From the NCBI GenBank assembly GCA_027493955.1, contig JAOSJT010000001.1:62001-126000 (forward strand): DNA of 64,000 bases, given 5' to 3'. Positions within the stretch are counted from its first letter, which is position 1. Every line of letters begins with the position of its first letter. The notes beneath the pieces were generated by a model that did no database searches, was not told where the DNA came from, and was given only the letters and a program-made list of their open reading frames with translations. A program made the position numbers and the translations under genes. The stretch is from Bacteroidia bacterium. Its GTDB lineage: Bacteria > Bacteroidota > Ignavibacteria > SZUA-365. Positions 21,109 to 26,633 of the stretch are shown here, one piece after another.

Positions 21109-23184
21109 ATGCGAAAGGAAATGCAATCCTCATACATGTCCTCCGTTATCTCCACCATACCCGAACTGTGCAAGCGCTGCTATTGCTGCGTACGCGAATG
21201 CCCCGCCAACGCCATTCAGATTCAGAACGGACAGGCCGTGGTGCTGTCCGCGCGCTGCGTCGGTTGCGGGAACTGTTTGAAGGTGTGTACTCAGCATGCA
21301 AAATCCGTGCAGGACGGGGTATCCCATGTACTTGAACTGCTCGCGAATGCCGGATCACAGGAGCGCATCGCTATGCTTGCGCCTTCCTTCCCCGCGGCCT
21401 TCCCCGGTATCGAACCGTTGCGCATTGTCGGTGCACTGCGGACAGCCGGCTTCACCAGGGTTGTGGAAGTGGCGTTCGGTGCCGATCTCGTCAGCGAGGC
21501 CTATCACAATTTCATAGCCGAAAGCGATCGCCCCGTCATCACCACTCCCTGTCCGGCCATAGTCGAGTACATCGAGATGTACTACCCCGAACTCATACCC
21601 AGTCTCGCCCCCATTGTGTCTCCCATGATCGCGGCAGGGACGGTCATGCGGGAAAAATACGGCGCGTCGGCGGTCGTCGCATTCATCGGACCCTGTGTCG
21701 CAAAAAAACTGGAGATCCTCGATACCAATGTCGAGGGCATCGTGAACGAGGCGCTGACGTTTGATGAATGCACTACGCTGTTCGAACGCTGCGGCATTGA
21801 TCCCGCCACGCAAGCGGAAGTGGAATTCGACCAACCGCGGGCGAATCTTGGCCAGATTTATCCTGTTTCAGGAGGCCTGTTGAAAAGCGCGGGCATCGGT
21901 TCCGATGTCATGAACGAGGAAGTCGTGATCGTTGAAGGCCGCCAGCGCTGCATGAATATCATCAGTGAACTTGCGCAGGGGAAGGTGAACAGCAAGTTGA
22001 TAGACATCCTTTTCTGCGAGGGCTGTATCAACGGTCCCGGAATGACCAGTGAACTGAATTATTTCGAGCGGCGGGAATGCATCATCAGCTGGACGAAGTC
22101 CCGCAGTGCGGGTCTCAACAAGGCCATCTGGCGCAATGCCATGCAAACGTACAAGGATCTGGACCTCTCGCGCGAATACCGCGACCGAAGGGTACAGGAA
22201 CGGGTGCCGGATGAAGTGGAGATTCAGCGCATTCTCAACGCCATGGATAAGCATGCGGTGTCGAACCAGATCAATTGCGGGGCCTGTGGCTATGCAACCT
22301 GCCGGGATCTGGCAATTGCGGTGGCTCAAGGCATCGCCGAAAAGGAAATGTGTCTGCAGTACACCATTGACAATCTCGAACGCTCCCATCGTGAACTCGC
22401 TGAAGCGCAAGCGCAGCTCATTCAAACCGAGAAGCTGGCTTCGGTCGGCCAGTTGGCGGCAGGTGTGGCGCATGAGATCAACAATCCGCTGGGCACCATT
22501 GTACTCTATTCCCATTTACTGCTCAAACAGTTACAGGAATCGGACCCCGCACGCGACGATATCCGGTTCATCATCGCCGAAGCCGAACGCTGCAAGAACA
22601 TCACCGCAAGTTTGCTCAATTTCGCTCGTCAGGGGAAACTGGTCGTAGCCGAAACTTCCGCACAGGAGCTTCTCACCTATACTGCGACTATGATCGGCAG
22701 AAGGGACGATTTTTCCGCCATCGAACTACGACTCGACATCGCGGATGAACTCCCGCCGCTGTTTATTGACCTGGATCAGATGAAACAGGTGCTGCTCAAC
22801 CTCGCCCTGAACGCTTGCGAAGCGATGCCGGACGGTGGCACGCTGACGCTCGCGGCACACATGGCTCAATCGCCGCGGGAAGTAACCTTCCGCGTTTCGG
22901 ACACCGGAGTAGGAATACCGAAAGAAAATATGTCGCGATTGTTCACTCCATTTTTCACAACGAAACAGATCGGGAAAGGCACGGGACTGGGGCTCCCCAT
23001 CGCGTATGGAATTGTCAAACTCCATCACGGGCGGATTGAAGTTCGCAGTGAAGCGATGAAGGGGACCACCTTCACCATCACTCTGCCAAGCGATCTGCGG
23101 GATTATCCGACCGGAAAACCGATGACGCCTTCTGAACTGGCGGACGCGTTGTCCCCCGGAGCGCTCACAACAATAAGCACCTGA
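21109..23184 (+). CDS. Sensory [FeFe]-hydrogenase-like protein fused to a histidine kinase
   Basis: A 691-residue cytoplasmic fusion. Residues 21-60 hold two [4Fe-4S] ferredoxin motifs (Cys 21/24/27/31 and 50/53/56/60). Residues about 85-340 are an H-cluster domain: L1 TTPCP (Cys148), L2 GPCVAKKLE (Cys196), L3 FCEGCINGPG (Cys303, Cys306). Compared with catalytic enzymes (TSCCP, C-x3-C) the proton-shuttling first Cys of L1 is Pro and L3 spacing is C-x2-C, so a sensor rather than a fast enzyme is expected. Residues 390-415 add a CGACGYATC..C iron-sulphur segment. HisKA follows (His455 in AGVAHEINNPLG) and HATPase_c (DTGVGIPKEN, GTGLGLPIAYGIV). It likely senses H2 or redox state and signals by phosphorylation. 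It precedes the receiver-PAS kinase by 6 bases. Confidence 0.9.
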   Translation: MRKEMQSSYMSSVISTIPELCKRCYCCVRECPANAIQIQNGQAVVLSARCVGCGNCLKVCTQHAKSVQDGVSHVLELLANAGSQERIAMLAPSFPAAFPGIEPLRIVGALRTAGFTRVVEVAFGADLVSEAYHNFIAESDRPVITTPCPAIVEYIEMYYPELIPSLAPIVSPMIAAGTVMREKYGASAVVAFIGPCVAKKLEILDTNVEGIVNEALTFDECTTLFERCGIDPATQAEVEFDQPRANLGQIYPVSGGLLKSAGIGSDVMNEEVVIVEGRQRCMNIISELAQGKVNSKLIDILFCEGCINGPGMTSELNYFERRECIISWTKSRSAGLNKAIWRNAMQTYKDLDLSREYRDRRVQERVPDEVEIQRILNAMDKHAVSNQINCGACGYATCRDLAIAVAQGIAEKEMCLQYTIDNLERSHRELAEAQAQLIQTEKLASVGQLAAGVAHEINNPLGTIVLYSHLLLKQLQESDPARDDIRFIIAEAERCKNITASLLNFARQGKLVVAETSAQELLTYTATMIGRRDDFSAIELRLDIADELPPLFIDLDQMKQVLLNLALNACEAMPDGGTLTLAAHMAQSPREVTFRVSDTGVGIPKENMSRLFTPFFTTKQIGKGTGLGLPIAYGIVKLHHGRIEVRSEAMKGTTFTITLPSDLRDYPTGKPMTPSELADALSPGALTTIST

Positions 23185-23190
23185 ATTCGC

Positions 23191-24684
23191 ATGGATGAAA
23201 ACAAACCGACTCTGCTGGTCGTTGATGACGAGTTGGGTCTGAGGGAAGGCATACGCCGGATTTTTACCCTCGAAGGTTACGCGGTAACCGTCGCGGAAAA
23301 TGGCAGCGAGGGTGTTCAAAAGGGCTCAGAAAGTGAGTTCGATGTCGTGCTTCTGGATTTGAAAATGCCCGATATTGACGGACTCACTGTGCTCCGACGA
23401 CTGCGGGAGATATATCCGGATACCGAATATCTGATTATCACCGCTTTCGCCGGTATAGACACGGCTGTGGAAGCGACGCGTCACGGTGCCTACACCTACA
23501 TCCCCAAACCCTTTACACCCGATCAAATCGTATTCGAGGTCAACCGGGCTTTGGGGAAACGGCGGCTCACGCTCGAGACCCGTGAATTGCGGGCCGAACA
23601 GGAACGACGGCTTCTCGAGATCAGTCAGGAGAAGAGCCGGCTTCGCACCATTATCAATGCGATCAATGATGCGGTGTTTGTTACCAATCTGGAAAACGAG
23701 ATCGTCCTGGCCAACCCACAGACCCGCGCACTGTTCAACTTTCCGAGCACCATCAAGGCTGGCGATACCATCACCGATCTGCTCCCGCGCGAGGTGATCG
23801 ATATCATCGAAGAGGCACGGGTGAAGGCCGGTGAGGGCGTGGAGGTGCTGGCGCACGAGTGGGAGATGAAGCCGAATCTCGAGCTCGTGGTGTCCATGAA
23901 AACCGCACCCGTACGCGATGCGTCAGGAAGTATCATCGGTTTCGTGAGTACGATACAGGATGTCACGCAACTGAAACGTCTGGATGCCCAGAAGTCGCAA
24001 TTTGTCTCCATGGTAGCGCACGAGCTCAAAGCGCCGGTCGCGGCCGTGTCCGGGTATCTGGAAAATATGTATGCGAAAGTTCTCGGCGACGACATTGCGG
24101 CGTATGAAAAAATGATTGCCCGGTCACGCGAACGTCTGCAGGCGTTGATTGATCTCGTCAACGATCTGCTGAACATCAGCAGACGCGAATTAGGAACGAT
24201 ACGGCGCGAGATCGCCCCTGTCAGTATTCCGGATATCGTTGAAGCGAACAGAGAACTCTTGCAGGGAGAAATGGACAGGCGCGGACTGGCGTTCATCACG
24301 GAATATTCCGCTGCTCTCCCCCCCATATCTGTCGACAAGGATGAGTTCTCCCGCGTGGTCACGAACCTGCTCAGCAATGCGATCAAGTATAATCGCGACA
24401 ACGGAACGGTGACGGTTTCGGCGTTCCCCGAAGGCGATTCCGTGATCATTCATATTCGCGACAGCGGTATCGGTATGAAGAAAAAGGACCAGGATATGCT
24501 GTTTAGGCAGTTCTACCGTATTAAAAACGAGCAGACGAGAAGCATTCCTGGCACAGGTTTGGGGCTTTCCATCGTGAAACAAATCATCGATTCCTATCAC
24601 GGAAATATCAGCGTGGAGAGCGAGGAGGGCGTCGGAACGACGTTCGTTTTGCGGATCCCGGTGCATTTCGTCGGGGGTGAGTGA
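23191..24684 (+). CDS. Hybrid receiver-PAS-histidine kinase
   Basis: A 497-residue soluble protein. An N-terminal receiver (VVDDELG; Asp56 in VVLLDLKMPDIDG; Lys in YIPKPFTP) is followed by a short coiled coil, a PAS domain at about 140-265 (AINDAVFVTNLENEIVLANPQ, IGFVSTIQDVTQLKR), HisKA (MVAHELKAPVAAVSG) and HATPase_c (NLLSNAIKYNRDNG, DSGIGMKKKD, GTGLGLSIVKQII). The receiver-first order suggests it is phosphorylated by another kinase, most likely the hydrogenase-like kinase 6 bases upstream, and then relays the signal. The final output protein is not visible in this operon. Confidence 0.93.
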   Translation: MDENKPTLLVVDDELGLREGIRRIFTLEGYAVTVAENGSEGVQKGSESEFDVVLLDLKMPDIDGLTVLRRLREIYPDTEYLIITAFAGIDTAVEATRHGAYTYIPKPFTPDQIVFEVNRALGKRRLTLETRELRAEQERRLLEISQEKSRLRTIINAINDAVFVTNLENEIVLANPQTRALFNFPSTIKAGDTITDLLPREVIDIIEEARVKAGEGVEVLAHEWEMKPNLELVVSMKTAPVRDASGSIIGFVSTIQDVTQLKRLDAQKSQFVSMVAHELKAPVAAVSGYLENMYAKVLGDDIAAYEKMIARSRERLQALIDLVNDLLNISRRELGTIRREIAPVSIPDIVEANRELLQGEMDRRGLAFITEYSAALPPISVDKDEFSRVVTNLLSNAIKYNRDNGTVTVSAFPEGDSVIIHIRDSGIGMKKKDQDMLFRQFYRIKNEQTRSIPGTGLGLSIVKQIIDSYHGNISVESEEGVGTTFVLRIPVHFVGGE

Positions 24685-25170
24685 CAGACGAATACCGCTC
24701 GTCCGCTTTCGGCGGAGGAGAATGTTGTGCTATTTGCGATGAGGGAGCCATGATGCATACTTGCACGCGCAGGCCTTGTGTCTTGCAGTGTCAGGACGAA
24801 TGCGGACATCCTCACGCCCGACTCCGCTGTTGCCGCTCGTCAGGGGATACAGCGCGTTTCCGTTAAGACGTCGTAATTCGAATACTACCATCGCGGCGAT
24901 GTACGGAGCTTTGGTATAACTCCGCGGACCTCCGGAGCGCAGGTGGCGCCAGATACGCGTGGGTAGTTGTGACGACCCCGGATTCTTCCGGTGAAACCGG
25001 ATCACAGAAGCATCGAATGACAAGGCATCGACGGTGCGGCGCGTCTGCGCGGGCGAATCCCTTCGATGCCCGGTGCTCTGGAGCGCCCAATTTTTTGAAT
25101 TCTCGGTGATCCTGCCAATATTTCAAGATTCGTATCGCATGAATCGTTTGTTCGCAGGAAACAGTACAGG
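24685..25170. other. Intergenic region, no gene seen
   Basis: Nearly 490 bases between the hybrid kinase and the recombinase-like gene. Overlapping short frames on both strands lack motifs and ribosome-binding sites. No T-tract hairpin was seen after the kinase operon. It may hold decayed sequence. Confidence 0.4.
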
Positions 25171-26055
25171 ATGACAGAGAAAAAGCTACAGGGAATTGCC
25201 GAATCCTTCCAGACCTACCTTGCTGAGCACGGGAAGCATTTGAATACCATACGGTCGTACGGGAACGATCTCCGACAATTTTTTACCTGGTGTCGCAGTA
25301 CCTTCGGAAGCGAACTGGATCTGTCGATGTTGACACGCAGCGATGTCCAGGATTTCCGCGCGTTTTTACTCACCCGTAATGCGTCTCCGGCATCGGTCAA
25401 CCGCAAGGTGACGGCCTTACGTCAGTTTTTCGAGTTCTGTCGTAATCGCGATTTCATTTCCTCCAATCCCGCGAGCAACATCGGTGGCGTGACCGCAGAT
25501 CCGAAACCGCCCACGGTGTTGCTCCGCAAAGACGCTCTCCTGTTGGTACGCACGGCGGAGCGGCAGGCGGGTTCGCTGGACGCGAGTATCATTCTCCTGC
25601 TGCTGCATGCAGGATTGCGGAGCAGTGAACTCTGCGCTCTCACCGTCGGCAATGTGCATCTCACACCACGCGAGGGGCGGTTGTTCATCAAGGGACAGCG
25701 GGGAAAAACCACGCGGTTTGTTTTCTTGAGCATGCGCGCACAGAATTCTCTCCGGCAGTACATGCGCCAGCGCGGCATTAGTGTGCTGGCAAAACGGTTG
25801 CGCAATGAGGCGCTCTTCCTCACGCATGACGGCTCCCCGCTGACACAGCAGGCGGTGGATCAGATCGTCAAGCGCGTGGGACGTCTTGTCGGCATGGCGG
25901 AAATCACACCGTCCATGCTGCGCAACACCTACGCCGCAAATCAACTGCAGAGCGGCGCGTCGCCGGAGGCCGTTGCGCTGACCATGGGAGTCGCATCACT
26001 CAAGTCCATTCAGCGACTCAAGGAGCATTTGGACGACGATACGGATGTGGAATGA
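25171..26055 (+). CDS. Xer-type tyrosine recombinase homologue lacking catalytic residues
   Basis: A 294-residue protein with both Xer domains: an N-terminal core-binding SAM-like domain (FQTYLAEHGKHLNTIRSYGNDLRQF-type, shown here in part) and a C-terminal catalytic fold. Arg150 (HAGLRSSEL) and the beta-hairpin Lys (GKTTRF, about 179) are kept. The box that should read TPHxLRHT is TPSMLRNT (Ser248, Asn252; only Arg251 kept), the LGH box is MGV (Val274), and the nucleophile Tyr is Leu283 in SIQRLKEHL. It probably cannot cut DNA and may be a DNA-binding or regulatory derivative. The stop overlaps the start of aat by four bases (ATGA), so it is translationally coupled to a housekeeping gene. Confidence 0.85.
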   Translation: MTEKKLQGIAESFQTYLAEHGKHLNTIRSYGNDLRQFFTWCRSTFGSELDLSMLTRSDVQDFRAFLLTRNASPASVNRKVTALRQFFEFCRNRDFISSNPASNIGGVTADPKPPTVLLRKDALLLVRTAERQAGSLDASIILLLLHAGLRSSELCALTVGNVHLTPREGRLFIKGQRGKTTRFVFLSMRAQNSLRQYMRQRGISVLAKRLRNEALFLTHDGSPLTQQAVDQIVKRVGRLVGMAEITPSMLRNTYAANQLQSGASPEAVALTMGVASLKSIQRLKEHLDDDTDVE

Positions 26056-26633
26056 ACATTATCTCCCCGGATCGTTTGCTCGCCATGTACGCTTCCGGTG
26101 TGTTCCCGATGGCCGATGGACGAAGCGGTCCGTTGCTGCTGTTCAGCCCTGATCCGCGCACGATCATACCTTTGGAAGACTTTCACATAACACATTCGCT
26201 GAAAAAAACCTGGCGGGCCGGTCGTTTCGACATTCGTTACGACACCTGTTTCGAGCGGGTGATGCGCGAATGCGCCGCGAGAGACGATACCTGGATATCC
26301 GAAGAGATCATCCGCTCCTATGTTCTTCTGCACCGGCAGGGGAATGCGCACAGTGTGGAGACGTGGATGGATGGCGAGCTGGCAGGAGGCTTGTATGGCG
26401 TAGCCCTCGGGGGGGCGTTTTTCGGAGAATCGATGTTTCATCTGCGACGCGACGCTTCCAAGCTCGCGCTCATCGCACTGGTAGAACGTATGTTGGATAA
26501 GGGAATGACGTTGCTCGATGTGCAGTACAGCACACAGCATCTCCTTACTTTCGGGGCTAAAGAGATACCGCGAACGAGCTATCTGCGTCTGCTGGAAAAA
26601 GCGATTACCCAGACGGTATCTTTTTCGGATTGA
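26052..26633 (+). CDS. aat: Leucyl/phenylalanyl-tRNA--protein transferase
   Basis: A 193-residue Aat, the N-end rule enzyme that adds Leu or Phe to proteins with N-terminal Arg or Lys, marking them for ClpS/ClpAP degradation. Motifs: YASGVFPMAD, FSPDPRTIIPLEDF, ETWMDGELAGGLYGVALGG, FFGESMFHLRRDASKLAL and LLDVQYSTQHLLTFGAKEIPR, all close to the family consensus. The usual W in P-W-W-SPDPR is missing at that position (LLLFSPDPR), a minor variation. The ATG lies within the stop of the recombinase-like gene. Confidence 0.96.
   Translation: MNIISPDRLLAMYASGVFPMADGRSGPLLLFSPDPRTIIPLEDFHITHSLKKTWRAGRFDIRYDTCFERVMRECAARDDTWISEEIIRSYVLLHRQGNAHSVETWMDGELAGGLYGVALGGAFFGESMFHLRRDASKLALIALVERMLDKGMTLLDVQYSTQHLLTFGAKEIPRTSYLRLLEKAITQTVSFSD

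Follow-up and report, generated by a model that had tools for sequence, protein, structure and literature searches.

Directly upstream of aat in the analyzed DNA (a 64,000-nt stretch, referred to here as the window) lies a gene for a Xer-like protein, which we call XL. The XL frame is uninterrupted over 294 codons, and its TGA stop shares the letters ATGA with the ATG start of aat at 26052. The earlier note had described an intact gene overlapping aat by four bases, and the frame at 25171-26055 bears this out. The features of the locus are as follows:

25094..25124, + strand: promoter-like block TTTG-N19-AATATTTC, 46 nt ahead of the XL start (read from the sequence; alignments and scan)
25171..26055, + strand: XL, Xer-like protein without the catalytic Tyr and His, 294 aa (sequence, Pfam, alignment)
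25240..25305, + strand: codons 24-45, helix B of the core-binding domain, predicted DNA contact (model, conservation)
25387..25446, + strand: codons 73-92, helix D of the core-binding domain, predicted DNA contact (model, conservation)
25618..25629, + strand: codons 150-153, Arg I and Glu, invariant (alignments)
25846..25887, + strand: codons 226-239, helix J, predicted major-groove contact (model, conservation)
25912..25926, + strand: codons 248-252, SMLRN replacing HxxRH, with the His lost and Arg II kept (alignments)
25990..26019, + strand: codons 274-283, Val for His/Trp and Leu for the nucleophilic Tyr (alignments)
26020..26052, + strand: codons 284-294, 11-residue tail versus at least 19 residues in Xer proteins (alignment)
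26052..26633, + strand: aat, leucyl/phenylalanyl-tRNA-protein transferase, start overlapping the XL stop by 4 nt (TIGR00667; adjacent in 15 of 15 loci)

The downstream gene scores 182.7 bits with TIGR00667 (cut-off, 143.6), and it directly follows XL in all 15 loci. In 12 genomes that belong to the class but not to the order, no Xer gene lies closer than about 1.5 kb to aat. The divergent neighbor of the XL-aat pair is gyrA in all 14 of the other genomes (e.g., L056:2302-4809, - strand); an assignment of this large gene as a Clp ATPase was considered and rejected. Downstream of aat, the orthologous loci usually carry a pfkB-family kinase gene in the opposing orientation. The window genome is the sole, rearranged exception to the gyrA linkage: its gyrA lies at C1:704367, and the still intact XL-aat pair is flanked by a two-component gene and by an opposing gene that, by eye, resembles one for a glycogen branching enzyme. 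In this genome, the pair moved, or stayed behind, as one unit. Therefore, a role that requires an adjacent gyrA cannot be general. A partnership between XL and the kinase genes upstream of it in the window was also rejected, as these are not adjacent to XL in any orthologous locus examined. Further upstream, a single protein encoded at 21109-23184 (+ strand) combines iron-only hydrogenase large-subunit-like, FeS, and histidine kinase domains; the next gene, at 23191, encodes a response-regulator/PAS/histidine-kinase protein, and the two are possibly a redox-sensing pair.

The block ahead of XL has a counterpart just upstream of the gene in other genomes (TTG, about 19 nt, and YAYATTTY or a close variant). 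We called it promoter-like by comparison with the promoter consensus of the phylum, and an ordinary promoter accounts for its conservation. A search for operators as perfect inverted repeats (7-base arms, gap of 2-12) in the 160 bases upstream of XL returned one repeat versus 1.6 in shuffles, i.e., no enrichment. In the gyrA promoter region of the window genome (L101), AATATTTCCGATT resembles the XL block ATATTTCnnGATT; this likeness was noticed post hoc and carries no weight.

Catalytic positions, C-terminal tail, and predicted fold

XL clears the cut-offs of PF02899 and PF00589 and has a two-domain, Xer-type fold along its full length (Phage_integrase, 1.5e-22; N-terminal SAM-like domain, 7.9e-11). 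In contrast, it fails the XerC and XerD equivalog models, scoring 144.2 versus 335.2 bits with TIGR02224 and 144.6 versus 329.6 bits with TIGR02225. The XL proteins are basic, with pI values of 9.8-11.5, and a literature search returned no description of the family.

In alignment with E. coli XerD, three active-site residues are kept in XL (R148 as R150, E151 as E153, and R247 as R251) and four positions are replaced (H244 by S248, H248 by N252, H270 by V274, and Y279 by L283). The earlier note's view that the fold and Arg150 persist agrees with the Pfam domains and with this alignment, to which R251 can be added as a second retained active-site Arg. All four substitutions that it listed (Ser248, Asn252, Val274, and Leu283) are correct as residues, but its placement of Asn252 at a catalytic His is not: Asn252 aligns with XerD His248, a conserved but non-catalytic residue, the catalytic His being H244. 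The catalytic Lys of the beta hairpin falls in a region of ambiguous alignment, where XerD K172 lies on Q176 in one alignment and, in others, the Lys of the XerA GKG or XerD K175 lies on R177.

The same pattern extends to all 15 XL proteins, that of the window included. The Tyr column holds Leu in 11, Val in 3, and Phe in 1, versus Tyr in 37 of 37 XerC/XerD proteins. The His column of HxxR holds Ser in 10, Thr in 4, and Met in 1, and the second catalytic His column Val in 11, Thr in 2, Ile in 1, and Met in 1, with neither His nor Trp at either position in any protein (0/15). Without exception, the XerD His248 position is Asn, and the two active-site Arg and the Glu are kept. This pattern is not due to chance, and the finding is real rather than an artifact. 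The earlier note's proposal that cleavage was lost while the fold was kept is thus strongly supported: 15 of 15 orthologs, all next to aat, lack the Tyr and both His but keep the Arg pair. Its converse, a Tyr at the active site or orthologs with broken frames, was not seen. Judged from these residues, the loss of catalysis is complete and probably predates the radiation of the order, and the label "site-specific recombinase" would be wrong for the family.

Only 9-11 residues follow the Tyr column in XL, compared with at least 19 in Xer proteins, leaving the XL tail 8-10 residues shorter; for this comparison, the extended XL frame of G013 was trimmed to 292 aa. That frame (L019) reaches 331 aa through a shift near the C terminus, where close relatives stop at 292, and could reflect an assembly error. 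In Xer proteins, the C-terminal tail is the part swapped between subunits. With a tail this short, the standard synaptic tetramer is therefore probably not built by XL. A study of archaeal XerA treats the C-terminal helix as a switch (PMC3646895).

The AlphaFold2 model of XL is confident (mean pLDDT, 88.6; pTM, 0.63), and its nearest structures are XerA (Z 22.0), XerH (Z 19.8), Cre, and an integron integrase. The high rmsd of the full-length matches may reflect a free angle between the two domains of the model. Phage repressors are also among the matches, namely, SroF (Z 16.4) and MrpR/YopR (Z 13.2-13.8). Helices B, D, and J were assigned as DNA contacting on the geometry of the Cre and XerD fold, and residues invariant among XL proteins are enriched in these three helices (24/56 versus 52/238 elsewhere; p 0.0015). 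Separately, PDB 9i5v chain 14, a 401-residue chain that carries the name of the ribosome-associated translation inhibitor RaiA, matches the Xer profile over its first ~278 residues and looks like a fusion of Xer with RaiA.

Distribution, constraint, and the resident Xer proteins

When 41 genomes were searched at the protein level, every one of the 11 other genomes of the family had an XL ortholog, as did three of four further genomes of the order; identities were 46-69%, well apart from XerC/XerD matches at 33% identity or less. Each of the 15 copies, counting that of the window, is an open frame. XL is missing from a single genome of the order (G012, 74% complete), which also has no aat or gyrA match; therefore, the entire block is probably absent from its assembly. 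A profile search at 1e-45 across the class (294 genomes) matched the same 15 proteins and nothing else, and in the phylum sample (395 genomes) only the window genome gave a match; no further relatives were found in these class and phylum samples, and none in viral contigs. Phage proteins match XL at identities up to about 30%. The named ortholog records are metagenome assemblies labeled Ignavibacteria, Chlorobiota, Bacteroidota, or Bacteroidetes.

XL is constrained as strongly as the order's own XerC and XerD and is under purifying selection. Across the same nine genomes, the mean pairwise identity is 60.3% for XL, 60.7% for XerC, and 62.0% for XerD, and the mean pN/pS is 0.41, 0.41, and 0.38, respectively, values that are only rough because synonymous sites are near saturation in most pairs. 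In the closest pair (G002/G005), XL has a dN of 0.05 and a dS of 1.26. In the tree, XL forms one clade (support, 100/100) apart from the XerC and XerD clades, on a stem of ~2 changes per site; because of this long stem, the tree does not name XerC or XerD as the parent.

The window genome also encodes an intact Xer pair, which the earlier note had suggested looking for. Both proteins retain the Tyr. The one whose gene comes after a topoisomerase-like gene (topA by eye) falls with the XerC-type clade; the other, encoded just ahead of tmk (by eye), clusters with E. coli XerD. A single dif-like site, ACTTCGTATAATAAATATTATGTAAAGT, lies at C1:966.9 kb (C1:966879-966900), outside the window, which itself contains no match to the dif pattern. 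With at most one mismatch, the 22-base dif-like core occurs once each in 9 of 17 genomes, and a reversed control gave 0 matches. As intact XerC and XerD and one dif-like site are present, XL is not the resolvase of this genome, and the idea that it substitutes for a missing Xer was rejected. Elsewhere in the genome, also outside the window, a degraded integrase fragment with an in-frame TGA (L005; G000:C1:36244-36405) resembles an intact phage-type integrase at C1:5078379 (L003).

Possible roles of XL

A DNA-binding regulator fits these observations best because the DNA-contacting helices and the phosphate-binding Arg are kept, the chemistry and the tail are lost, and the gene is coupled to aat in an operon. 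XL is almost certainly dead as a recombinase, and it very probably binds DNA. The fuller account, to which we give about an even chance, is that XL is a third chromosomal Xer paralog that lost cleavage before the order radiated and was kept as a sequence-specific DNA-binding protein co-expressed with aat. Such a protein would clamp DNA in the Xer fashion, with N-terminal helices B and D and C-terminal helix J, while the Arg pair would grip the core phosphate without cutting. It would probably act as a monomer or dimer, since the short tail should block the swap through which Xer subunits assemble into a tetramer. Its most likely activity would be transcriptional regulation. The XL-aat operon itself is one possible target and, in most of the order, the facing gyrA is another; we hold the assignment as a transcription regulator tentatively, a little short of even.

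Several other roles could be attributed to XL. It could be a non-cutting accessory to the Xer/dif machinery that limits or shapes recombination through contact with dif, XerC, XerD, or FtsK; in favor of this, it is a Xer paralog and shares its genome with XerC, XerD, and a dif-like site. However, XL is unlinked to xerC, xerD, and dif, its short tail should hinder the standard subunit contacts, and related genomes beyond the order have XerC/XerD matches but no XL. In addition, the Arg at window protein positions 32 and 220, constant in the three Xer proteins compared, are changed in XL, and therefore hint that a different DNA sequence is bound; we regard an accessory role as unlikely. We give the same low weight to an architectural or topological binder of junctions or supercoils that has no promoter target and originally sat beside gyrA: the basic character of XL and the divergent gyrA beside it in each of the 14 other genomes speak for it, whereas in the window genome the gyrA linkage is gone while the constraint on XL persists, and only the aat linkage is universal. 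The constant order and near-overlap with aat in 15 of 15 loci would suit a protein that serves Aat without specific DNA, e.g., one whose recombinase fold is a scaffold for contacts with Aat or tRNA, but the conserved residues cluster in the helices that recognize DNA and in the Arg pair that binds phosphate, which makes this decidedly improbable.

Retention of both active-site Arg might indicate a recombinase that still works through another nucleophile or the Tyr of a partner. Yet the final 60 residues of the window protein contain just one Tyr, Tyr254, which is replaced by Phe in G005 and has no counterpart in this region of the G001 protein; both catalytic His are lost, and the tail is shortened, so that continued activity is highly improbable; a displaced active-site Tyr was rejected outright, the C-terminal region having no conserved Tyr. 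Decay of a pseudogene or of a mobile integrase would likewise remove catalytic residues, but all 15 copies are open, at a fixed chromosomal position and under constraint equal to that of XerC/XerD. This constraint across the order refutes a pseudogene, and the lack of viral-contig relatives together with a phage identity of at most about 30% led us to reject a recent phage origin, leaving a decaying gene or integrase remnant barely credible.

XL is therefore best read as a chromosomal pseudo-recombinase that would serve to bind DNA, and its evolutionary history is unusually clear. Non-catalytic tyrosine recombinases are already known as regulators from phages; what is new in XL is a chromosomal gene common to a bacterial order and under the same constraint as true XerC/XerD. 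The 15 dead and 37 intact relatives form a clean set for testing how cleavage gives way to binding in a Xer protein, and aat, which belongs to the N-degron pathway, gains a candidate regulator in XL. A broader possibility, that a conserved dead Xer acts order-wide as a chromosomal regulator of transcription or topology and thereby couples DNA supercoiling, through gyrA, to the N-degron pathway, through aat, seems to us unlikely.

Among known proteins, XerC and XerD (TIGR02224 and TIGR02225) are the best sequence relatives of XL, sharing the two-domain, full-length fold, both Arg, the Glu, and a similar length; XL differs in having neither the Tyr nucleophile nor the catalytic His, a tail 8-10 residues shorter, and scores of ~144 bits against cut-offs of ~330. 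The streptococcal XerD-like protein (HAMAP MF_01817; NCBIfam NF002685) is a chromosomal Xer paralog reported not to act at dif, in a gene neighborhood different from that of XL; XL scores 30.5 bits with its model (cut-off, 178), and the lineage differs. By analogy, XL would most likely work like the SPbeta master repressor MrpR/YopR, a DNA-binding repressor with a tyrosine-recombinase fold and no recombinase function (PMC10516654). Both have lost catalytic residues from this fold (MrpR, PDB 8A0A), but MrpR is phage encoded, keeps its Tyr (Y304) and Lys (K169), and has lost the first Arg and His (PMC10516654), while XL is chromosomal, keeps both Arg, has lost the Tyr, and matches in structure only (Z 13.2). 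As MrpR lost different residues, the likeness is one of kind and no evidence of orthology. The phi3T repressor SroF (PDB 9RD5 and 9RGL; a repressor by the titles of its structures) is also phage encoded, unlike XL, and its DNA-bound structure matches the XL model at Z 16.4. Host co-option of tyrosine recombinases is also described for domesticated eukaryotic genes derived from Cryptons (PMC3212892); these are of transposon origin, whereas no mobile origin is evident for XL.
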